Shown here piece by piece: positions 636-14,304 of a stretch of 64,000 nucleotides of DNA. Origin of the DNA: Acinetobacter sp. WU_MDCI_Axc73 (GTDB taxonomy: Bacteria > Pseudomonadota > Gammaproteobacteria > Pseudomonadales > Moraxellaceae); contig NZ_JAHPRO010000010.1 in assembly GCF_025562455.1 (NCBI RefSeq), positions 62,001 to 126,000 on the forward strand, written 5' to 3'. Under the pieces are notes generated by a model. It searched no databases. It was not told where the DNA came from and saw nothing but the letters and a program-made list of their open reading frames with translations. Both the position numbers and the translations under genes were made by a program. Each line of letters starts with the position of its first letter. The stretch's first letter is position 1.

Positions 636-1115
636 TCAAGCACGGTGATAAGGATGATTATGGTTGATGCTCATGGCTCGATACAGTTGCTCAATCAATA
701 AAATTCGAACCATCGGGTGTGGCATTGTGAGTTTTGATAAAGACCAATGCCAGGCAGCCGCTTGACGAACTTGATCAGATAATCCATCTGGGCCACCAAT
801 AGCTAAAGCTACATCATTGCCTTCAAGCATCCATGATTTCATGGTTGCAGCCAGTTTTTCTGTACTTAATTCTCGACCACCAACTTCCAGTGCAATCAAG
901 GTCTCATTTGGTTTTAAAGCATTCAGAATAGTTTCACCTTCAATTTGGCAATATTTTAAAATATCTGCTTCTGAATCATTTTTTCCACGTTTCGCCATCG
1001 GTAACTCAATCACTTGAGTCTGCACAAAAGGTTGTATTCGTTTGAAATAATCTTCAAAACCTGTAACTACCCAAGCTGGCATTTTCTGACCAATTGTGAG
1101 GATGCGAATTTTCAT
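636..1115 (-). CDS. rlmH: 23S rRNA pseudouridine-1915 N3-methyltransferase RlmH
   Basis: This 159-residue protein starts MKIRILTIGQKMPAWV, matches the family's normal length (about 155-160) and carries the SPOUT knot motifs LIALEVGGRELSTE and ALAIGGPDGLSDQVR, plus the C-terminal QLYRAMSINHNHPYHRA tail that closes the AdoMet pocket and binds rRNA. RlmH methylates N3 of pseudouridine 1915 in helix 69 of 23S rRNA on assembled 70S ribosomes, using S-adenosylmethionine. The gene lies downstream of a strong hairpin-plus-T-run (1237-1274) on the same strand, so it either has its own promoter in the 120 bp before its start or depends on readthrough of that terminator. Identification is close to certain from the tail alone. 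Confidence 0.96.
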   Translation of the reverse strand: MKIRILTIGQKMPAWVVTGFEDYFKRIQPFVQTQVIELPMAKRGKNDSEADILKYCQIEGETILNALKPNETLIALEVGGRELSTEKLAATMKSWMLEGNDVALAIGGPDGLSDQVRQAAAWHWSLSKLTMPHPMVRILLIEQLYRAMSINHNHPYHRA

Positions 1116-1236: not shown

Positions 1237-1274
1237 AAAAAAACGCAGCCCATCAAAAGCGTGAAAGGGCTGCG
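1237..1274 (-). terminator. rho-independent terminator of the candidate small RNA
   Basis: Eight G/C-rich pairs (1244-1251 with 1267-1274) around a 15-nt loop are followed on the minus strand by seven T (plus-strand A run 1237-1243). The T run is only on the minus-strand 3' side, which gives the direction. Confidence 0.7.
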
Positions 1275-1344
1275 GTTAAAAGGTCATCTGTCTGGAGAAT
1301 CAGATGACCAGACTAAATTCAGCAAACTAAAATGATGAATTGTT
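1237..1344 (-). ncRNA. candidate small RNA (about 108 nt) between lon and rlmH
   Basis: On the minus strand a good sigma-70 promoter (1351-1378) is followed by about 108 nt with two hairpins and a rho-independent end. Stem 1 pairs 1301-1309 with 1282-1290 (nine perfect pairs, GGUCAUCUG with CAGAUGACC). Stem 2 pairs 1267-1274 with 1244-1251 (CGCAGCCC with GGGCUGCG) and is followed by seven U. A rival helix, GUCUGG (1308-1313) with CCAGAC (1290-1295), overlaps stem 1. No start codon with a Shine-Dalgarno opens a useful reading frame. The lon transcript already ends at its own 12-bp terminator (1391-1418), so this unit is separate from lon. It is a stand-alone RNA, or an attenuated leader of rlmH. 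I do not recognise the family. Confidence 0.45.
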
Positions 1345-1350
1345 ACTTTT

Positions 1351-1378
1351 ATTATGGAGTTAATTGATTAATTTTCAA
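1351..1378 (-). promoter_or_regulatory. predicted sigma-70 promoter for the lon-rlmH intergenic RNA
   Basis: On the minus strand TTGAAA (1373-1378) is followed after 16 nt by CATAAT (1351-1356); each hexamer matches five of six consensus bases. With 17 nt spacing the -10 would read ATAATA. The start of transcription would be near 1344. No other gene start lies within 230 bp downstream. Confidence 0.5.
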
Positions 1379-1435: not shown

Positions 1436-3862
1436 TTAATGGCGTGCAGCTTTTGATTCTTCAACAGGTTTTACGATCGGCGTTTTTGCAAGTGGTTTAG
1501 GCTGTTCAGTTAAAGCCAATGGCAGAATCTCATCGATGCTTTTCACTGCTTTAATTTCCAGACCTTCTTTCACATTATCTGGAATTTCAGCTAAATCACG
1601 TACGTTATCCTGCGGGATAAACACCAGTTTGATACCGCCACGGTGTGCGGCTAAAAGTTTCTCTTTCAAGCCACCAATACGAAGTGCATTACCACGTAAA
1701 GAGGTTTCACCTGTCATGGCAATATCAGCGCGGATTGGAATCCCAGTAAATGCAGAAACCAATGCTGTTGTTAATGCTAATCCAGCAGAAGGACCATCTT
1801 TAGGGGTTGCACCTTCAGGCAAGTGAACGTGAACATCAGTTTCTTCAAAACGAGAAGCCTCGATTCCCAATTCATCTGCACGAGTACGAACCACGGTCAT
1901 TGCAGCGGTAATCGATTCTTTCATGACATCACCAAGCGAACCGGTAGTAATGAATTTACCTTTACCTTTAACAGCTGCTACCTCGATGGTCAATAACTCT
2001 CCACCTACTGAAGTCCAAGCCAAACCATTAACACGGCCCACTTGAGCTTCATCTTCAGCCATACCGTAGTCAAATTTATGTGCACCTAAGTAGTCTGGCA
2101 AATTTTCACCAGTAACATCGATATGCAAATTTTTTGACTTTTTACTAACGGCTTCTTTCACCACTTTACGTGCAATTTTAGAGACTTCTCGTTCTAAACT
2201 ACGCACACCAGCTTCACGGGTGTAACGACGAACGATATCTCGAATTGCTTCTTCATGAACTGTCAATTCACTGCTACGCAAACCATTGTCTTTAATTGCT
2301 TTTGGTACGAGGTAACGTTCAGCAATATTGACTTTCTCTTCCTCGGTATAACCCGGTAAGCGAATGACTTCCATACGATCCAGCAGCGCTTCTGGAATAT
2401 TCATGCTGTTGGCAGTACAAATAAACATCACTTCTGATAAGTCCAGATCAAGATCTAAGTAGTGATCGTTGAACTTACTATTTTGTGATGGATCTAGAAC
2501 TTCGAGCAGAGCAGAAGCAGGGTCGCCACGATAATCCTGCGCCATCTTGTCAATTTCATCGAGCAAGAATAAAGGATTCTTGACACCGACTTTGGTCAAT
2601 GACTGCACAATTTTACCCGGCATCGCACCAATATAAGTACGACGGTGACCACGAATCTCAGCTTCGTCACGTACACCACCTAAGGCCATACGCACAAATT
2701 CGCGTCCCGTAGCTTTTGCAATAGACTCACCGAGTGAGGTTTTACCCACTCCAGGAGGACCAACCAAACACAAAATTGGGCCACGAAGTTTTTTCACACG
2801 GGACTGAACCGCTAGATATTCCACAATACGGTCTTTGACATCATCTAGACCATAGTGGTCAGCATCCAAAATTTCCTGAGCTTTTTTCAGGTTGATACTG
2901 ACTTTACTTGCGGTATTCCATGGAGTATCCAGAATCACTTCAAGATAATTACGAACTACAGCCGCTTCGCTCGAAGCTGGTTGCATTGCTTTTAACTTGC
3001 GAAACTCAGCTTCCGCTTTTTTACGGACGTGTTCGGGTAAATCTGCTTCAGCCAGACGTTTTTCAATTTCAGCAACGTCATCTTCAGCACCGCCATTCAT
3101 ATCGGAAAGCTCACGCTGAATCACTTTCATTTTTTCATTAAGAAAGTATTCGCGCTGATTTTTTTCCATTTGGCGTTTTACATTGTCATGCAATGTTTGC
3201 TCAATTTGTTGTTCAGCAGATTGTTGAGTTAAATAAGTGGTTAGCTCTTGCAAATGTGCTTCAAACTCATCATGTTCCAGAAATTTCTGTTTTACATCGA
3301 TATTTAAGGGCACACGAGTCGCGACGAAGAACATGAGTTGTAATAAGTCGTCGATTTTGTTTGCAGCCGTCACCAACTCACGGGCATTACGTAATTTTGC
3401 TTCTGCATATTGAGCAAATAAAGTCCGTAACTCCTGCAACCGAGTTTCTTGATCAGTTTTATCCATACTAACCGCCATCGGACTTAATTGATGTTCGGCT
3501 GTCAGATGGCTATCTTCATCAATAATCTTGGTCAGTTTTGAACGATATAAACCTTCAATTAGAACCTTAATACAGTTTTCATCATTTTCGTGATTCACAA
3601 CTTGCACAATCTTCGCGACAGTACCGTATTGATAAAGGTTGTCGTGATCAATTTCTTCGGTAAGAGAATCTTTTTGTGCAACTACAAATACTAAATTGTC
3701 ACTGTTACGAGCCACATCCACTGCATTGATCGATTTTTCACGACCCACGAATAGCGCAATTTGCATGTGTGGATAAACCACAACATCACGCAACGCTAAA
3801 AGCGGTAATACACTTGGAACCTGAGGCTCTAAGGTTTCTATATTCATAATATTTTCAGACAT
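1436..3862 (-). CDS. lon: ATP-dependent protease Lon
   Basis: Lon is a cytosolic AAA+ serine protease that unfolds and degrades damaged or short-lived regulatory proteins. The order is normal: N-terminal substrate domain, a coiled region near residues 190-270, the AAA+ module with Walker A GPPGVGKT near residue 366 and Walker B LFLLDEIDK, and the protease domain with the catalytic serine in PKDGPSAG near residue 690 and its lysine about 43 residues on. I place the start at the ATG at 3862, which has AGGAG five bases upstream; a GTG two codons earlier directly abuts that AGGA and is a poor start. This gives 808 residues, slightly longer than E. coli Lon because of a proline- and lysine-rich C-terminal tail. 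A bidirectional terminator follows. Confidence 0.97.
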   Translation of the reverse strand: MSENIMNIETLEPQVPSVLPLLALRDVVVYPHMQIALFVGREKSINAVDVARNSDNLVFVVAQKDSLTEEIDHDNLYQYGTVAKIVQVVNHENDENCIKVLIEGLYRSKLTKIIDEDSHLTAEHQLSPMAVSMDKTDQETRLQELRTLFAQYAEAKLRNARELVTAANKIDDLLQLMFFVATRVPLNIDVKQKFLEHDEFEAHLQELTTYLTQQSAEQQIEQTLHDNVKRQMEKNQREYFLNEKMKVIQRELSDMNGGAEDDVAEIEKRLAEADLPEHVRKKAEAEFRKLKAMQPASSEAAVVRNYLEVILDTPWNTASKVSINLKKAQEILDADHYGLDDVKDRIVEYLAVQSRVKKLRGPILCLVGPPGVGKTSLGESIAKATGREFVRMALGGVRDEAEIRGHRRTYIGAMPGKIVQSLTKVGVKNPLFLLDEIDKMAQDYRGDPASALLEVLDPSQNSKFNDHYLDLDLDLSEVMFICTANSMNIPEALLDRMEVIRLPGYTEEEKVNIAERYLVPKAIKDNGLRSSELTVHEEAIRDIVRRYTREAGVRSLEREVSKIARKVVKEAVSKKSKNLHIDVTGENLPDYLGAHKFDYGMAEDEAQVGRVNGLAWTSVGGELLTIEVAAVKGKGKFITTGSLGDVMKESITAAMTVVRTRADELGIEASRFEETDVHVHLPEGATPKDGPSAGLALTTALVSAFTGIPIRADIAMTGETSLRGNALRIGGLKEKLLAAHRGGIKLVFIPQDNVRDLAEIPDNVKEGLEIKAVKSIDEILPLALTEQPKPLAKTPIVKPVEESKAARH

Positions 3863-3994
3863 GGGCACTCCTAATGAGTGACAACAATGTTGCCATGTTT
3901 TTTATAGTGATGTGTATTTTGAAAATTACAAGGGCATTCATATAGAAAATGCAAAAAAATAAGCAAATCAGTCGGAATTCTTTAGATCAGCAGC

Positions 3995-4570
3995 TTAGCG
4001 TTTAAAATGATAGATAGCGTGAGGTGTCAGAAGTGCATCCAATGGCTGATCCCATGCTTGACGAGGCAAGGTTTGATCAAGTAATTGAAAAGTGTGAGCT
4101 AAGCCTAAACGAAACGGTTGATGTGGTGCTGTTGCTAATGTGCGGTCATAAAAACCACCGCCCATTCCCATTCGTGTTCCATGATGATCACAGGCGACTA
4201 AAGGCATTATTACTAAATCAAGATGAGAGACAGAATAACCACGACTTGCCATTGGTTCTTTCATGCCTAAAGGATGATGAGAAAACCGCTTATTTCGATA
4301 TTGATGAGAGCTCACTTTCACCCAGACCAATTTATTATTCATATTACAGATCATGGGTAAATAAACTTGTTTTTTTAATTTATAACATTCTTCTATGAGC
4401 AATCTCGTATGAACTTCACCAAATGCATGAAGATATAAACCTATTTTTTGATGATCGGTCTTTGTTAGAAATTGTCTAAAAAAAAATAAAGCCGAGGAGG
4501 CTAATTTTTTTTGCTGAAATTTATTTAGCTGTTTGCGCTTCTGAATTAAAGTTTTACGAATATTTTTCAT
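3995..4570 (-). CDS. ygfA: 5-formyltetrahydrofolate cyclo-ligase
   Basis: This protein of 191 residues begins MKNIRKTLIQKRKQL, a basic helix typical of the family, and has the signature LVACDHHGTRMGMGGGFYDR near residues 125-145, the ATP- and folate-binding loop of 5-formyltetrahydrofolate cyclo-ligases. The enzyme uses ATP to convert 5-formyltetrahydrofolate to 5,10-methenyltetrahydrofolate, returning a storage or dead-end form to one-carbon metabolism. It is the first gene upstream of lon on the same strand, 132 bp away. In enterobacteria ygfA follows the 6S RNA gene, but here the upstream DNA is AT-rich and I see no 6S-like structure. Confidence 0.9.
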   Translation of the reverse strand: MKNIRKTLIQKRKQLNKFQQKKLASSALFFFRQFLTKTDHQKIGLYLHAFGEVHTRLLIEECYKLKKQVYLPMICNMNNKLVWVKVSSHQYRNKRFSHHPLGMKEPMASRGYSVSHLDLVIMPLVACDHHGTRMGMGGGFYDRTLATAPHQPFRLGLAHTFQLLDQTLPRQAWDQPLDALLTPHAIYHFKR

Positions 4571-4884: not shown

Positions 4885-7800
4885 ATGAACAAAGTATACA
4901 GAGTCATATGGAACGCTTCTTTAGGAGCATGGGTTGCGGTTTCTGAGTTAGCTAAATCTAAAAGCAAATCAAAATCAGTAAAGAAAACAGCACAGATTGC
5001 CATTGTAGCGACGACAATTGCATTTGCTGTATCGGCTCATGCGCAGGATATCGATGAAGATTTAAATGTAACAGGTGATATAACAGCTACGGGGGAGATG
5101 ACTGGTTCGGATGTAACTACAACGAATGGCGCATCTCTCAATGAGTTGAATAATAAAGTAAATGACACTTCTACAGGTTTAGCAACTAAAGCATCCCAAA
5201 CTGATTTCAATACACTCAATAATCAAGTCAATAACACGACAACAGGTTTAGCGACCAAAGCATCTAAAGACGATGTAAATGCTGCAAAAACCGAAGTGCT
5301 GGAGGGTAACAACATTAAAGTTACTCCTTCTAATGGCAGTAACGGTCAAACGATTTATACAGTTCAAACAGCAGATGAAGTGACTTTTAATAAAGTCACT
5401 GTAGGCGGCACAATTATTGATGATGGGCAAATTACAGTTGCAAAGGATGGAACCATTGCAGCAGGCTCACAACAAGTGATTACAGGCAATCAGTTTTATG
5501 AGCTAGAACAAAAACTTTTTAACAGTGGTGCGCAAGGCATTAAATATTTCCACGCAAATTCAAACTTGGATGATTCGGCCGCCTATGGTACAGACTCTGT
5601 CGCTGTAGGACCCAAAGCAATTACTAATAAATCCGCCACTGACTCTATCGCGATTGGTACAAATGCACTCGTAGGAACCCAAGATGACGGTACAACACCA
5701 GCTCCAACTGATGGGGTAGAGTCTATTGCTATTGGTAAAGATACTATCGCTTTAGGTAACAAAAATACCGTTATTGGTCAGGCTGCAACTGTCGATTCAA
5801 AATATGTTACCAGCTCTTTAGCTCTTGGTGATTCTGCAAAAGTCACAGGTGACGATAGTAATAATGCTTTGGCGATCGGATCTAATGCTGTATCAAGTGC
5901 CGCAGGCGCAAGTGCAATAGGGAATGCAGCAGCAGCTAGTGGTTCAAATGCTACGGCAATAGGCGGAAATTCGAATGCTTCAGCAACAAACGCAACGGCT
6001 ATTGGTGAGAACTCAACTGCTGGTGCTGATGCAGGTACAGCAATAGGAAGTAACTCTCAGGCAAATAGTACTAATGCGGTATCAATTGGTAGTAATGCTG
6101 GACTAGGTACAACTAACTTACCAGGGAATGCCAATCAAAATCATATCGCAATCGGCACATCGTCTGGTCAAAACATAACTGGCAATGAAAATATTGCAAT
6201 TGGTTTGGAAGCCTCCAATAACACATCGGGTAGTTATAATATTGCAATTGGCTCCAAAGCAGGTCAGGGCGCTACAGGAGAGGAAAGTGTAAGTATTGGT
6301 TATATCTCTAATCAAGGTTCGACTGCAATTAATCATACCACCGCACTTGGAGCGAGAACTCAATCTGGACAAAATGCTGTGGCAGTTGGATATTCTGCAA
6401 ACGCCAGTAATCAAGGTGCAGTTGCAGTAGGCTCATTATCAAAAGTTCAGGGTGTGGATGACGGCACAGGCAATATCACAAATGCAGATAACGGCGTTGC
6501 ACTAGGTACAAATGCATGGTCACAGGATAATAGTATTGCACTTGGAGCAAACTCTATTGCATCAAGCACTGCCTCGCAAACTCAAGCTGGATATATTACC
6601 TCTGCGTTAATTGGTGATCAGGGCGTAGTTTCAGTCGGTGCCGATTCCAATGGATCAACTGCATCTTTTAACCGTCGAATCGTACATGTCGCTGATGGTG
6701 CTGGAGATTATGATGCAGTTAACGTTAACCAATTAAGAAAGGCACAGGAAAAAGTTGCAGATATTATTGGTGGTAATGTGACTGTTAATAGTCAAACTGG
6801 GGATTATTCTCAAATCACGCTCAAAGATACGAGCGGTAAAGAGTATCAATATAATACAGTTGTTGAAGCTTTAGGTGCACTTAGTACAGGAGCAATCCAG
6901 CTTCCTGCTACAGAAAATGCAGTGACTTATACAGATGCCTCATCTAAACAAATTAATCTTCGTCCAAATACAGTGATTAGTGGGGTTGCTGAAGGTAAAG
7001 TTGGTACAGACGCGGTCAATCTTGAACAAATGCAACAAGCCGTTGAAGAAAGTCGTGCTAAATATATTAGTGTGAACTCAACGACCAAAGGTAATCGTGC
7101 CAACGAAGGAGCTACAGGTATTAATGCGGTGGCGATCGGTCCAGATGCTATAGCTGCAAACAATAATAGTACCGCTATCGGCTCAAAAGTTCAGTCTTTG
7201 GGGGATTATGCAACCGTTATCGGAACTGCGGATTCAGTTGTATACGATACGGCAGGTGTAGCAATAGGTAATCACGCGATTAGTCGCGGTGAAGGCAGTA
7301 TTGTGATAGGTAAAGATGCTAAAGCAGAACCTCAAACATCACCAACGGGCAAAATTGACAATGCAATTGCTATTGGTACTCAAGCTTTAGTCACGAATGA
7401 AAAAGGGATTGCAATTGGTCAAAATACAATTGCTGAAGGTGCTGAAAGTATTGCTCAAGGTTATGATTCAAGATCAATTGGAAATGCCTCTACTGCAATT
7501 GGTGTAAGTTCTCGTGCCAGTGCAGAAAATGCTTATGCATTGGGTACAAATGCTAATTCCTCAGCGACCAATGCGCTTGCATTTGGTAATGCTGCGAAAT
7601 CAACTGCTACGGATTCAATTGCAACAGGAACGAATGCAACTACTTATGCGACCAATGCGGTAGCATTAGGTAAAGGTGCTGTTTCAGGCAAGGCCAATCC
7701 AACTAAAGAAGAAATAGATAATAATTCCAACTCTGATACGATCGCGATAGGCACTAATAGCTTTGCACAAATTAAAAATTCGCTAGCAGTTGGTAATACT

Positions 7801-10800
7801 GCAAGAGCAACTGAAGAAAGTTCACTTGCTTTAGGTACAGAATCTCAAGCAACTGCAGAAGATGCAATTTCAGTTGGCCAAAAATCACAAGCTTCGGGTT
7901 TAAATAGTTTGGCCTTGGGTAAAGAGGCACTGGCTACTCAAGAAAGTGCAATCGCGCAGGGTTATGGTGCGAAAGCTTTAAATACTAATACCATTGCTCA
8001 GGGCGTAAATGCTCAGGCTTCTGCTGATTATGCAATTGTTACAGGTACAAATGCTTTAGCGACTGGAAAAAATGCTATAGCTCAAGGGTTAAATGCACAA
8101 GCAATGGCAAATAATGCGGTAGCCATTGGTGCTAATACAAGTGTAACAAATGCAAATGCAGTCGCATTAGGAAGTAATTCGGTATCAGGCAATTATAATC
8201 AAACTACAAAAAGCACCATTAATGGTAGGGATTATAACTATGCAGGTTCTGGTGCAAGTTTATCCACTGTTAGTGTTGGTTCAAAGGATAGTGAAAGACA
8301 AATTATAAATGTTGCGGCAGGTCGAGTAAGCTCAACAAGTACAGATGCTATTAACGGAAGTCAACTCTTTGCAGTACAGCAGGAAGTTCAACAGCCTTTA
8401 AGTTTTGCAGGTGACAGTGGAACTAAAGTTGATCGTAAACTTGGTGAGGAACTCAAGATTACAGGGGGGGCAACGAGTGCATTAACGGAAGGTAATATTG
8501 GTGTAGTCGCCAATGGTTCCGATACGTTGCAGTTAAAATTGGCGAAAGATGTGAATTTAACCAGTGCAGGTAGTTTAACGGTCGGTAACAGTAAAGTAAC
8601 TGATGGAAAAGTGGAAATAAAAGATTCCTCCAATAATAGCAATGTGAGTACCTCGACAAATAATGTCATTACAGCGGGTGCGAGTACAAACACGATCGAT
8701 GCTAATACCATTACATTAAAAAATGCAGCTAATAATGTCGTGCTTAGTGGTACAACAGGAACTTTAACTGGCTTAACCAATAAAACTCTATCCGTATCAG
8801 GATTTGCAACAGAAGGCCGAGCAGCGACTGAAGAGCAGTTAAAGCTGGTGAATGATACGGTCAATAAAGGTTGGAACATCACGACCAATAAAGATACAGC
8901 CAATAAGTCCAATGTAGCCCCAGATGCAACAGTAGATTTCTCCAATAGTGATAACAATATTACAGTAAGTCATACAGACACTAATGTGGATGTGAAACTA
9001 GCAGAAGTTGTCAATATTGGGGGGCAGCCTGGAGGCGCTACCATTAGTGTTAATGGTAAGAATGGAACGATTACTGGTTTAACCAATAAAACTTTTGATC
9101 CAAATAATTATACAACTGGTCGTGCAGCGACTGAAGATCAACTTGCGACACCACTTACATTCACAGGGGATAATGCAGGTGTAAATGTTCAACGTAAATT
9201 GGGTGAGCAACTCAGTATTGTCGGTGGTGAATCTGTCGCAGCAAATTTAACCGATAATAACATTGGTGTTGTTGCAGATAGCACTACTAATAAACTCACG
9301 GTCAAACTTTCTAAAGACATCAAACTTGATAGTGTGAATGCTGCGGGTACAGTGATCGATAGTAAGGGGTTAACGTTTGTTGATTCAAGTGGTGGGGCTA
9401 TTCCAAATTCACCAAGTATCAGCGCAACAGGTATCAATGCTGGAACCAATAAGATTACTAATGTTGGCGCTGGAGCAATTACTGATACTTCAATGGATGC
9501 TGTGAACGGTAGTCAGATCAAAGGCATTATTGATAAAGGCTTTACCGTCAGTTCAAATGGAAATACAGCAGCTAAGGATACGATTGCCTTAGGTGAAAAT
9601 GTTGATTTCAGTGCAACTGATAATAATATTAAAGTAACTAATACTGGAAATAATCAAATTACTTTTGGTCTGGAACCTGTCATTAAAGTCGGGCCTGCGA
9701 CTGGAGGAAATCCTGTTACTATTGATGGCAATACTGGTGAAATTACAGGTCTAACCAATAAAACGACGACAAGCTCAGACTTTGCAACCGTAGGGCGTGC
9801 AGCGACAGAAGAGCAATTAAAGACGATCCAGACAGGTTTAACGGATTCAGGTTTTGGTCTTAAAGCAGCGGATAGTAATACGGTTAATAAAAAGTTAGGA
9901 GAAACAATTGATATTGTGGGTGCTGATAGCAATATCACCACCAAAGTCGTGAATGATCAGATTGCAGTGGAACTTTCCAAAAATATAGATTTGAGTAAAG
10001 CGGGTAGTTTAACGGTTGGTAACAGTGAAGTAACTGATGGCAAGGTTGAACTAAATGATGGAACAAAATCTAATACCAGTACTGTAGACGGTACAGTGGT
10101 ATCCGATGGAACAAATACGACCACCATAGGTACATCACAAATCACAGTCGGAGCTGGATCAAATCCAGTTATTATTAATGGTGCTACAGGTCTTATTAGT
10201 GGATTAAGCAACACCACATGGGATCCAAATGCAACTTATAACCAAAAGCAAGCGGCCACAGAAGAGCAGCTTAAATCGGTCAGTGATGTTGCTCAAAATG
10301 CCAATCAAGGCTGGAACGTTAAATCCGATTCAACTTTAGCATCCACTCAGGTTAAACCAGCAGATACTGTTGATATAGGTCTTGCGAATGGCGAAAATAA
10401 CCTTAAAGTTGCGGCGACTAATAGTAATGGAACAACCACTATTGACTTTAGTCTGAATAGAGATTTGTTGCTAGACAGTGTGAATGCAGGTGGAACAGTT
10501 ATTGATAATACTGGTCTAAGATTTGTTGATCCTATTACAGGTTTACCACTCACCAACTCCCCGTCGATCTCTTTGGGTGGAATTAACGCAGGTAACCAAA
10601 TTATTAGCAATGTTGCCCCAGGTCAAAATGGGACGGATGCTGTTAATGTTAATCAGTTAAATGATGTTAAGGCGATTGCAGAAGAAGGATGGATATTTAC
10701 CACAGCCACATCAGGTAAAGGCCAAGTATTCAATTCATCTCTGCAAACGATTAAGCCAAATCAAACCTTTACCATGATTTCTGGCGATAACGTGGAGCTT

Positions 10801-12282
10801 ATTCAAAATGGAGATAAAGTTACCATTACCACCACACCAGAAGTCAGCTTTGACAAAGTCAATGTTGGAAACGTCGTTATCGATAAAACAACCAATAAAA
10901 TCACGGGGGTTGAAGCTGGAACAGTCGCAGCAAATTCAAAAGATGTGGTAAATGGCAGTCAGCTTCATGATCTGGGTAGCGGTGTTCAAAATATTATTGG
11001 TGGCAATACCACTTATGATCCGAATACTGGTACATATACCAATAATAATATTGGGGATACTGGACAAAACAACATCAATGATGCGATCAAATCGATCAAT
11101 GACACCGCTCAAAATGCTAATAAGGGTTGGACAGTTTCCACTAATGGTCAAAATGCAAGTCAGGTAAAACCAACAGATACTGTGGATTTTTCCAACAACG
11201 ACGGCAATATTCAAGTCAATAACACAGGCAATAACATTACTGTTGACTTAGCGAAAGATATTCAAGTTGATAGTGTGACGGCTGGTAATACAACCTTGAA
11301 TAATAATGGTTTAACCATCACTGGCGGGCCAAGTGTAACCATAGATGGTATTGACGCAGGTGGTAATAAAGTCACTGGTGTTGCAGAAGGCAGTATTGCT
11401 CAAGGCAGTAAAGATGCAGTCAATGGTAGCCAGATTCATGACATTATCGGTGATGGTGCATTTCAGGGAGGTGATGGCAATACCATCACCAATATTGGGG
11501 GTACGGGTGCAACCAATATTAATGATGCGATTGGGTCAATTAATCAAAAAGCAGGTCAACATAGCACTGTTGAAGCCGGTCAAAATATTACGGTTAAAGA
11601 AAGTACCAATATTAATGGTGGTAAAGAATATACCGTTGCGACTGCTGATGATGTGAAATTTAACTCTGTCACTTCAAATACAGTGACTGCAAATAATGTG
11701 AAAGTTGGCGATGTAAATATTGATCAAAATGGTATTAATGCAGGCAATCATAAAATCACGAATGTTGCACCGGGTGAAATTTCCAGTACATCCAAAGATG
11801 CAGTCAATGGTTCGCAATTAAATACCTCGAATCAATATATCGTAAACTCGCTGGGTGGTGGTGCCAAATATGAAAATGGTCAATTTACTGGTCCTACCTA
11901 TAATGTGAACAACGGAAGTTATAACAATGTCGGCGATGCTTTAGGTGCATTAAATCAGGCCGATATTAATCTTGGAAATCGAATTACCAATCTCGGTGAT
12001 CGCTTGGAACAAGTGTTCTATAACGTAAATGGTCGTATCGATGATGTCGAGAAAAAAGCCAATGCGGGTATTGCCTCTGCGATGGCACTGGAGGGAGCAC
12101 CTTTTGTTGCGGGTAAATTTACCTATGCTGTAGGCGCTGCTTATCATGGTGGAGAAAATGCAGTCGGTGCAACCTTGCGTAAAACTGCAGATAATGGTCG
12201 CTGGTCAATTACAGGTGGTGTTGCGGCAGCGTCGCAAGGAGATCCAAGTGTCCGTGTGGGTATCAGTGGTGTGATTGATTAA
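4885..12282 (+). CDS. ata: trimeric autotransporter adhesin (YadA/Ata family), 2465 residues
   Basis: This is a giant surface adhesin that should secrete itself as a homotrimer through its own outer-membrane barrel and mediate binding to surfaces, host matrix or other cells. Residues 1-54 are an extended (ESPR-type) signal peptide starting [19 protein letters not shown] and ending at AHA-Q. Two left-handed beta-roll head regions follow (about residues 220-560 and 690-1120), packed with AIG/ALG-type 14-residue repeats. Neck motifs such as DAVNVNQL and DAINGSQL separate them. A long stalk has recurring GRAATEEQL and PNxTVDF-type modules. The last 90 residues are the YadA anchor ([14 protein letters not shown]). 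The final residue is aspartate in GISGVID, not the usual aromatic residue. It sits upstream of a tpgA-like gene, as ataA does in Acinetobacter sp. Tol 5. Confidence 0.93.
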
Positions 12283-12299
12283 TTTCATGAATGCTCAAC

Positions 12300-12322
12300 A
12301 GGAGGTGGATGTGCCATCTCCT
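12300..12322 (+). other. hairpin between the adhesin gene and tpgA
   Basis: AGGAGGTGG (12300-12308) pairs with CCATCTCCT (12314-12322) around a five-base loop: nine pairs with one G-U. No T run follows, so it is a poor terminator. It contains a Shine-Dalgarno-like AGGAGG and lies 30 bp before the likely tpgA start, so it could protect the upstream mRNA end or tune translation of tpgA. Confidence 0.45.
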
Positions 12323-12352
12323 TTCACAAAAATATTAAAGAGAACAAAAGCT

Positions 12353-13150
12353 ATGCAAATCAAAAAAACTTTTATGTTCGCTGCAATGTTGGGCTTTATG
12401 ATGTCTGCAACAGCAGCTGAACCAATGGCAACGACTGAACAAATTACTTTTCCTGATGTCAGTAAAAGCTATCTTAAACAGGTGTTGCGTTATGAGGTGG
12501 GAGATGTAGCACGTTTAGATACTGGATTGACTAAAGATCAGATCAGACATTTATTAGGTAATCCACAATTTAATGAAGGAGTTTTTGGGTCAAAAATATG
12601 GAATTATGTGTTGGATATTCGTGTACCCGATCGTAATGATTATAGACGCTGCCAGCTTCGTATTGATTTTGACAAGAATAATAAGGCTGAGCGGTTATCT
12701 TGGAAAGGTCAGGATTGTGAAGCTTTAATACATCCTAGTAATCCAGTACCAACTCGAACAACCCTAACTTCAGTACCAGTTGCTTCTGCACCAGTTCGAT
12801 CAAAAGATATTCTGTTCGCTTTCGATCGCTCTGATGTTGCAGGAATTACAACTGGAGTAGATTCGGTTAAAGAAATCGCAGAACAGATTGATAGTTCACA
12901 AGATCATCGTCCTGTTGTTGTTGCAGGTTATACCGATCGATTGGGTTCTTATGCATATAACCAAAAACTTTCTGCAAAACGCGCACAAACGGTTGCGACA
13001 TTGTTGACTCAATATGGTATTGATTCTAATCGTATAAAGATAGAAGCGAAAAATCAGACCACTGCTTATCAACAATGTGGTGCAAGCTCAGATAAGTCTC
13101 AATTGGTCGAATGTCTGGAGCCGAATCGCCGTGTTAATGTAAATTGGTAA
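12353..13150 (+). CDS. tpgA: TpgA-like periplasmic protein: BamE-like domain plus OmpA C-terminal domain
   Basis: From the ATG at 12353, preceded by AAAGAGAA, the protein has 265 residues and starts with a signal peptide ([24 protein letters not shown]). Residues about 45-125 resemble the SmpA/OmlA (BamE) fold, including [14 protein letters not shown] and later [10 protein letters not shown]. Residues about 150-265 form an OmpA-like peptidoglycan-binding domain, with [22 protein letters not shown]-type residues split across positions 205-228 and ending [10 protein letters not shown]. In Acinetobacter sp. Tol 5 a protein of this build, TpgA, is encoded with the adhesin AtaA and helps it reach the surface while anchoring it to peptidoglycan. 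The reading frame is open back to 12275, overlapping the adhesin's end, but that extension would hide the signal peptide. The 70-bp gap to ata suggests one operon. Confidence 0.88.
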
Positions 13151-13165
13151 TTAAATCAAACAAAT

Positions 13166-13193
13166 AAAAAGTACGCTTAAGGCGTACTTTTTT
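13166..13193. terminator. bidirectional terminator between tpgA and the export operon
   Basis: AAAAAGTACGC (13166-13176) pairs with GCGTACTTTTT (13182-13192) around a five-base loop, with T runs on both sides. It ends the ata-tpgA unit and overlaps the stop codon (13192-13194) of the convergent permease gene, so that gene's own coding end forms part of its terminator. Confidence 0.85.
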
Positions 13194-14304
13194 ATGACTT
13201 ATTCGATAACACTTTGGGTCGTATCACTAAACGATAATAAGCAATGAATAAGAAAACCCCTGCGGCACAGCTCAAAAAGATCAGTTTAGGTAATACGAAA
13301 TAAGTTTGAGTACCCATTTGATTAAGTTGAATAAATAACTGTACCGCATGGGTTGAAGGTAACAGCCAAGTAAAACCTTGAATCCATAACGGCATTGCTT
13401 CAATAGGCCAAGCAATGCCCGTTAATAAAAATAATGGAATAGAGGTCGAAACCAGAAAAAATCCTGCTCGTTCAGACATATCCAAGAGCGAACCAAAAAG
13501 TAGACCTAATCCAGTGATACAACTGACGAAAATGGGTACGGCCAATAGCATCCCCCAGAAGTTTCCGCCATGTGGGTAGTCATTTATCCAAAAAATGAAG
13601 CCAAATAAATAAAAACAACCTAAGCAACCTATGGTAAAAAAGCAGGCAAAAATTCCCCAAAATTCACTTGCTTTCGGACGCCATTTTTTTTCTCGAAAAC
13701 CGCCAATCAACATGCCTAAACCCAAAATAATGGTTTGATGAATAATCACAGGTGCGACAGCAGGAAAAATATAACTTCCATAACCAGACAAAGTATTAAA
13801 TAAAGGAATTTGATGAACTGAAAGTTCGGGTTTGAAATGAGAAATTTTTCCAAAGCGTTCTACTTGTTCACGAATCGCATTTTCAATCGCAGTGGCTAAG
13901 CCTAATCCGATATCTTTGGTTTTTAAAAAGTATGCGGTACTAATATAAAGCCCGATTCCTCCAACTTCGCCGCGTTGAATACTATTAGACAGATTATCGG
14001 GTAAATATAATATTCCATCGGCTTTTTGGTTACGCACCATTTGTTCGGCTTCAAGAAAATTACCAGTGATGGCCTTAATTTTCACATCAGGGCTATTGGC
14101 AACTTGAGTAATGATCGTTGAAGTGACGATGCTCTGTTCTTCATCTACAATGACGATAGGAAGGGATTCAGCATGTTCTGCCTTATAGGCGGTTGGATAA
14201 AAGATACTATAAAAGAAAACAGATAAAATGACGGTCGTCAAAATAGATGAATTTTTAAAAATATTTTTAAATGTTTCAAAATAATAGTGAAAGAAATTAT
14301 GCAT
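13192..14304 (-). CDS. ABC-2 type permease, last gene of an ATPase-less export operon
   Basis: This inner-membrane protein has 370 residues and the ABC2_membrane_3 layout: one N-terminal membrane helix (about 19-37), a periplasmic domain of about 130 residues beginning IVIVDEEQSIVTSTI, then five or so helices including the conserved LFLLTGIAWPIEAMP segment. It resembles YhhJ and YbhR-type subunits that, with an ATPase and a membrane-fusion protein, export drugs or other solutes. It overlaps the upstream permease gene by 8 bp, so the two are translationally coupled and probably form a heterodimer. No nucleotide-binding subunit is encoded in the operon. The substrate is unknown. Confidence 0.85.
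   Translation of the reverse strand: MHNFFHYYFETFKNIFKNSSILTTVILSVFFYSIFYPTAYKAEHAESLPIVIVDEEQSIVTSTIITQVANSPDVKIKAITGNFLEAEQMVRNQKADGILYLPDNLSNSIQRGEVGGIGLYISTAYFLKTKDIGLGLATAIENAIREQVERFGKISHFKPELSVHQIPLFNTLSGYGSYIFPAVAPVIIHQTIILGLGMLIGGFREKKWRPKASEFWGIFACFFTIGCLGCFYLFGFIFWINDYPHGGNFWGMLLAVPIFVSCITGLGLLFGSLLDMSERAGFFLVSTSIPLFLLTGIAWPIEAMPLWIQGFTWLLPSTHAVQLFIQLNQMGTQTYFVLPKLIFLSCAAGVFLFIAYYRLVIRPKVLSNKS

Follow-up and report, generated by a model that had tools for sequence, protein, structure and literature searches.

Enterobacterial MicA represses ompA, and RsaE and LhrC are loop-seed small RNAs (sRNAs) with C-rich apical loops complementary to Shine-Dalgarno sequences. A homologue of MicA is described for Bordetella in the available part of PMC12235514. 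Within Acinetobacter, the available parts of two papers describe Aar (RF02375), which is 103 nt long in A. baumannii and has a CUCC seed that acts on ribosome-binding sites (PMC11472050, PMC12802169); the CUCC is needed both for target binding and for repression of carO (PMC11472050). The RNA discussed here lies between lon and rlmH, on the minus strand of a 64,000-nucleotide stretch of DNA from Acinetobacter sp. WU_MDCI_Axc73, which we call the window. Like Aar, it is an Acinetobacter sRNA with a CUCC, though the CUCC of Aar is in a single-stranded 5′ region (as given in the available part of PMC11472050) and that of the window RNA is in the apical loop of its first hairpin. We rejected membership of the Aar family, as the match scores 29.4 bits against a gathering threshold of 60 (E 0.017 in a 401-nt stretch). 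The pyrimidine-rich anti-Shine-Dalgarno apical loop resembles those of RsaE and LhrC, which belong to a different phylum, the likeness being one of description with an absent Rfam match. If it acts on ompA, it would work as MicA and the other ompA-repressing sRNAs do, by covering the ribosome-binding site of that gene; it differs in having no Rfam match to MicA or to any family, and in that its targeting of ompA is a prediction (−15.0 kcal/mol). There were no Rfam matches at gathering thresholds anywhere in the window, nor in five stretches taken from relatives. Matches below threshold, for instance to CssrB (27.3 bits against 76), were taken as chance, and one to Trp_leader at 13098–13195 of the window (30.9 against 41) was ignored.

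Read along the minus strand, the locus consists of the lon terminator, a promoter-like box, about 35 nt of A+U-rich sequence, hairpin 1, a short U-rich linker and a rho-independent terminator. The upstream neighbour, lon (1436–3868, minus strand), is the conserved context of the RNA; rlmH, encoding a SPOUT methyltransferase (636–1115, minus strand), is the downstream neighbour and lies outside it. The original prediction held that the RNA is separated from lon by lon's own terminator, and a terminator scan indeed finds one at 1419–1390, which is also visible in the relatives inspected and forms the upstream boundary of the sRNA gene. The promoter-like TTGAAA-N16-CATAAT (1351–1378; TTGAAA at 1378–1373, CATAAT at 1356–1351) precedes a predicted RNA of about 108 nt (1237–1344), whose 5′ end is placed 7 nt past the −10 box and whose 3′ end is the U-run. 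Hairpin 1 (1282–1309) folds into nine pairs with a 10-nt loop, the arms being GGTCATCTG (1309–1301) and CAGATGACC (1290–1282) and the loop ATTCTCCAGA (1300–1291), within which CUCCAG (1292–1297) is the proposed contact site. The terminator (1237–1274) has eight pairs and a 15-nt loop, with arms CGCAGCCC (1274–1267) and GGGCTGCG (1251–1244) followed by seven T (1243–1237); it is not in the scan list, and its loop exceeds the scan's stated limit of 8 nt. The promoter-like boxes, nine-pair hairpin and U7 terminator are thus all present at 1237–1378 as had been claimed. A 115-nt stretch of this locus folds at −35.7 kcal/mol compared to −18.9 ± 2.7 for shuffled sequences (z −6.2; 0/200 as good). 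The window sequence contains no minus-strand open reading frame of at least 20 residues wholly within 1237–1344, and one (1167–1256) overlaps the end of the terminator.

To assess structure we aligned 26 of 30 hairpin regions, dropping two identical and two near-identical rows. Standard pairs occupy 94.0% of the cells in these 26 sequences, compared to 28–41% when the partner is slid, and the terminator helix is 97.0% paired. Compensatory changes occur in 10 of the 20 base pairs, 7 of the 11 counted for hairpin 1 and 3 of the 9 counted for the terminator. Cells with both sides changed number 48 compared to 17.5 in shuffles, none of 500 being as high; by one measure, that of further standard pair types, the alignment does not exceed the shuffles (19 compared to 19.8; 411/500). 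The CUCCAG columns are invariant in the alignment, and in distant loci (e.g. L139, L140, L151, L154 and L158) the letters of the stem largely differ while the pairing and the CUCCAG loop are retained. When we folded 69 distinct stretches, drawn from 180 loci with a lon end, 64 gave a stem of at least seven pairs that leaves CUCC unpaired in its apical loop, compared to 198 of 1380 controls with shuffled flanks; in the other five the stem forms and the minimum-energy fold pairs part of the loop. The same 69 stretches hold 33 different 11-nt strings on the 5′ side of the stem. These comparisons indicate that the secondary structure of the sRNA is under selection, and since selection keeps one loop sequence on a changing stem, the loop is likely to be the working part of the RNA.

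A covariance model built from the 26 sequences gives a single clear match in the window genome, at 82.7 bits; it found no paralogues there, the next matches being at 21.2 bits (E 0.66). Matches are present in 111 of 149 Acinetobacter genomes, or 110 of the 144 good ones. A BLAST count of 122/149 was set aside for the model count, as many BLAST matches cover only the lon-terminator part of the query. Searching the family Moraxellaceae, we found matches in 53 of 199 genomes: 47 Acinetobacter, five in two further genera (50–53 bits) and one weak. The search of the order gave 2 of 194, namely the window's own genome and one weak match. Three weak matches were rejected as false, lacking both the CTCCAG loop and lon: L144 from a third other genus (34.2 bits), L145 from the order search (33.2) and L147 (33.7). 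A pattern scan of named genomes returned 66 records, all of them Acinetobacter, with species including A. nosocomialis, A. pittii, A. calcoaceticus, A. seifertii, A. ursingii, A. soli, A. haemolyticus, A. towneri and A. baylyi; none of the 66 is named A. baumannii. The closest to the window genome among the genomes compared is A. ursingii, and the intergenic region is 93% identical in genome G115.

The position after lon is kept in nearly all of the loci in which synteny was counted (sets of 31, 66 and 20 stretches). The RNA adjoins lon in all 31 loci of the first set. Of the 66 named stretches, 65 likewise hold lon, and the remaining one, cut at its edge, shows rlmH at the usual spacing; among 20 further stretches fetched for weak or distant matches lon is found in 15, the exceptions being the three false matches above and L146 and L152, described below. 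In the two other genera lon is 76–78% identical and the RNA again follows it. Of 151 loci with a lon end, 147 have the core, and the 88 distinct ones among these served to count promoters and spacings; L149, L151, L157 and L158 are model matches that the text pattern missed. TTGA(A/T)A-N15-18-CATAAT is found in 47 of the 88, and in 60 when variants of the −10 box are allowed, with the start sites being predictions only; the remaining 28, among them the five of the other genera, have no match to the pattern. The first 4 kb of the window hold six promoter-like sites compared to 9.3 expected in shuffles, so the promoter alone means little and its weight comes only from relatives.

The model finds no match in 38 of the 149 Acinetobacter genomes. 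Leaving aside G110 and G113, we looked for lon in the other 36 and also in G085 and G097, and scanned the 1500 nt after lon for exact CTCCAG in 30 of the resulting loci (L266–L295), representing 28 genomes with no match plus G097 and G085. The CUCCAG hairpin was not found in this interval in 27 of the 30, some of which hold CTCCAG without such a fold. G085 and G005 keep the hairpin after lon, the latter (L291) as a strongly diverged copy missed by the model, and in G068 the sequence runs off the contig. Such a pattern may reflect loss or relocation of the RNA in several clades. One candidate for a move is G097, which has no CUCCAG hairpin at lon; at L146:3148–3230 (minus strand; 37.1 bits) it has a terminator and a hairpin whose loop is again UAUCUCCAGA, between other reading frames and some 0.2 Mb from lon on the same contig. 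At this score it is probably, though not certainly, a relocated copy. A stretch from G031 (L152) is similar to L146; upstream of its hairpin about 0.6 kb of contig is left, and there is no lon in the stretch.

An independent small RNA, one of the two options in the original prediction, has strong support: the synteny, the covariation, the conserved terminator and partly conserved promoter, and the persistence of the RNA with other genes on either side all speak for it, and on these comparisons we are very confident that it is a real, conserved and autonomous small RNA gene. An RNA sitting 3′ of lon in nearly all loci checked, with only 75–1136 nt (median 171; 88 distinct loci) from the end of lon to the loop, could also be a by-product of lon transcription, i.e. 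a 3′ UTR fragment or a second terminator with no function of its own. We consider this highly improbable: a strong lon terminator precedes the RNA, 60 of the 88 distinct loci have a promoter-like box ahead of the hairpin, a glyoxalase-family gene separates lon from the RNA in locus L010, and the compensatory evolution shows that the structure is under selection. The other option was a leader or attenuator acting in cis, in which two competing helices would control readthrough into rlmH. In the window the RNA shares its strand with rlmH and directly precedes it, lon and rlmH are less than 400 nt apart in 55 of the 83 distinct loci that reach rlmH, and a rival helix, GTCTGG (1308–1313) with CCAGAC (1290–1295), spanning 1290–1313 of the minus strand, can be drawn in the window sequence. 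However, the rival helix is not conserved, being lost in relatives: across the alignment only 58.3% of its cells are paired, with no compensatory changes and no better than shuffles, and four of its six pairs leave the commonest pair only by breaking. The distance from lon to rlmH is at least 400 nt, mostly 1.2–2.3 kb, in the remaining 28 of the 83 loci, and the two relatives whose genes were read one by one have an oppositely oriented M28 peptidase gene between the RNA and rlmH (L010:1584–2525 and L018:1591–2556, both minus strand). In addition, rlmH has a −10-like box of its own (TATAAT or TATACT) within 70 nt in 79 of the 83; that of the window, TATACT at 1149–1154 on the minus strand, is likely rlmH's own promoter, and like boxes are found in relatives. 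Finally, the hairpin of G097, probably an off-site copy, is away from both lon and rlmH. On the loss of the helix, the intervening M28 gene, the rlmH box and the probable off-site copy we rejected the attenuator and its competing hairpins, and give them almost no chance of being correct.

The transcript itself is probably already catalogued. For A. baumannii AB5075, the available part of a survey by Weiss et al. (2016; PMC5320573) lists Art50/ABUWs054, a plus-strand transcript of 148 nt at 2,875,807–2,875,954, and 6S RNA on the same strand at 2,870,610–2,870,897 (288 nt); the Art50 entry, as far as that part of the survey goes, gives no function, structure or family. The end of Art50 is 5,057 nt past the annotated end of 6S RNA. 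In two genomes that we take to belong to the calcoaceticus-baumannii complex our RNA is also on the 6S strand, and ends 5,054 nt (G061) and about 5,039 nt (G082) past the end of the 6S model match, an agreement good only to about 100 nt as the AB5075 6S annotation is about 100 nt longer than the 6S model match. The predicted length in G061 is about 142 nt, compared to 148 nt for Art50. The same distance is about 10–34 kb in four other genomes of the complex (G007, G099, G008 and G052), and the match of the Art50 position is thus not generic. Gene numbers point to the same place: lon is ABUW_2865 in AB5075 (available part of PMC5727411), ABUW_2969 overlaps a transcript at 2,982,596, i.e. 2.98 Mb (available part of PMC5320573), and at our estimate of about 1.02 kb per gene this puts lon near 2.876 Mb. 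Position, strand and size therefore agree, to about 100 nt, by way of 6S coordinates and ABUW gene numbers, and the RNA is probably Art50/ABUWs054, an assignment that rests on coordinates, strand and size. The earlier statement that no named Acinetobacter RNA is known at this place is thus probably out of date. Evidence of expression comes through Art50, by map inference only. In literature searches by the place or name of the RNA we found only the Art50 table line and no function; the family, the structure and the fixed loop were likewise not found in the literature searched. A term search of the main texts, as available, of the Hi-GRIL-seq (PMC11472050) and Hfq RIL-seq (PMC12802169) papers found no mention of lon, Art50 or ompA.

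6S RNA lies about 5–34 kb upstream of this RNA in six other Acinetobacter genomes searched, and was not found in the 64-kb window, even at E 0.05. At 4885–12282 (plus strand) the window has a gene for a trimeric autotransporter adhesin of 2465 residues, with ESPR and YadA head and stalk domains in the first 1333; it adjoins a 5-formyltetrahydrofolate cyclo-ligase gene (3995–4570), and its end is overlapped by a gene at 12275–13150 (plus strand) for a protein with BamE and OmpA-family domains. In G007 a large reading frame (1985 residues) likewise lies between 6S RNA and lon, and such a large reading frame may explain the varying distance from 6S to the sRNA.

How might such an RNA work? We propose an independently transcribed non-coding sRNA of about 108 nt (a predicted 142 nt or so in G061) with two hairpins, the first of which presents the fixed CUCCAG loop ahead of a terminator with a U tail. 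The loop would be the seed of a trans-acting, probably Hfq-assisted sRNA, pairing with ribosome-binding sites that carry (U)CUGGAG and blocking their translation, much as the CUCC of Aar does on carO. Since CUCC complements GGAG, and the CUCC of Aar works in the same genus, we give roughly even odds (a probability of about 0.5) that this is a trans-acting sRNA with an anti-Shine-Dalgarno seed in its loop, judging from sequence and from the analogy with Aar. The conservation of the loop does not by itself favour a pairing seed, as a protein-binding site would be just as likely to keep its loop unchanged: the loop may be read by a protein, or the RNA may titrate other sRNAs, with no pairing to mRNA. 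A fixed loop on a freely changing stem marks a protein site too, and the poor conservation of sequence upstream of hairpin 1 leaves no second obvious pairing region. The motif of CsrA is GGA, and the loop holds no GGA, which makes a CsrA sponge unlikely. Against a protein site or sponge in general stand the complementarity of the loop to Shine-Dalgarno sequences and the working CUCC seed of Aar in the same genus (available part of PMC11472050), and we regard such a role as unlikely.

The most speculative step of the proposed mechanism concerns its leading target, which would be ompA (omp38), by way of the Shine-Dalgarno region UCUGGAGGAU. In the window species this sequence can pair along the entire 10-nt loop, through nine Watson-Crick pairs and one G-U. 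Of four loop types set against the ompA leader, AUUCUCCAGA alone pairs without a break over all 10 positions, and the three others make at least seven pairs. The predicted duplex (−15.0 kcal/mol) beats all 45 gene starts called in the window, of which the best reaches −10.0, and only 2 of 500 shuffled loops do as well or better on ompA, though the best shuffle (−17.2) goes beyond the real loop and ompA was picked by the same UCUGGAG motif on which it is scored. UCUGGAG occurs 4–9 nt before an ATG 31 times in the window species, 53 times in A. baylyi and 39 times in A. nosocomialis, compared to 7, 10 and 6 when the pattern is reversed. As UCUGGAG holds an ordinary Shine-Dalgarno core, chance should account for some of the matches. 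We did not fetch sites that we take to be copies of 23S rRNA (five in A. nosocomialis, two in A. baylyi and one in the window genome), and in the window genome and A. nosocomialis we also passed over the site on the strand opposite the sRNA itself. Of all the sites, 38 lead into a reading frame at least 60 codons long (window species 9, A. baylyi 20 and A. nosocomialis 9). Two UCUGGAG starts are common to all three species, that of OmpA (Omp38, NCBIfam NF045788) and an ATG inside mlaE, the latter being internal as the family match starts at position 183 of 253. Thus ompA is the only true gene start with UCUGGAG 4–9 nt before the ATG in all three species examined.

The anti-Shine-Dalgarno reading comes in two versions, which differ in what the loop would pair with. 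The targets may be other genes, or many genes, and not ompA, a possible though tentative alternative; several UCUGGAG starts per genome fit it (9, 9 and 20 with frames of at least 60 codons), including that of pyrE, which is common to the window species and A. baylyi, but no true start other than that of ompA is common to all three species, the one in mlaE being internal. As to ompA, we found TCTGGAGGAT in all 28 leaders examined, from 30 loci fetched, the other two having been missed by the text pattern. The leader motif TCTGGAGGAT-N2-5-CCATGAA is present in 132 of the 149 genomes, counted by motif without tying each occurrence to ompA. It does not track the RNA, being found in 100 of the 111 genomes with a model match and 32 of the 38 without (Fisher p = 0.38), a test slightly blurred by copies that the model missed (e.g. 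G005). As the motif is about as common where the model finds no match, its conservation needs no sRNA. The ompA leader UAUCUCUGGAGGAUA(AA)UCC-AUG is nearly invariant in the 28 leaders (L237:1441–1500 and 27 other genomes), and in the window species the ompA Shine-Dalgarno sequence is predicted to lie in a small hairpin (UGGA/UCCA). We regard ompA as a main target only as a lead, not a finding, and a doubtful one at that. Equally doubtful is the wider proposal that the sRNA family, with members in Acinetobacter and two or more related genera, is a counterpart of MicA whose anti-Shine-Dalgarno apical loop represses ompA, on a stem that may drift provided that CUCCAG stays presented.

What had been an intergenic feature, probably Art50, can now be described as an RNA family that has a structure model, extends beyond Acinetobacter and offers one proposed contact site. 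Should ompA be its target, the RNA would be a post-transcriptional regulator of a major outer-membrane protein of the genus. Should the targets be other genes, the CUCCAG loop and the CUCC of Aar together would hint at a common anti-Shine-Dalgarno code in Acinetobacter.
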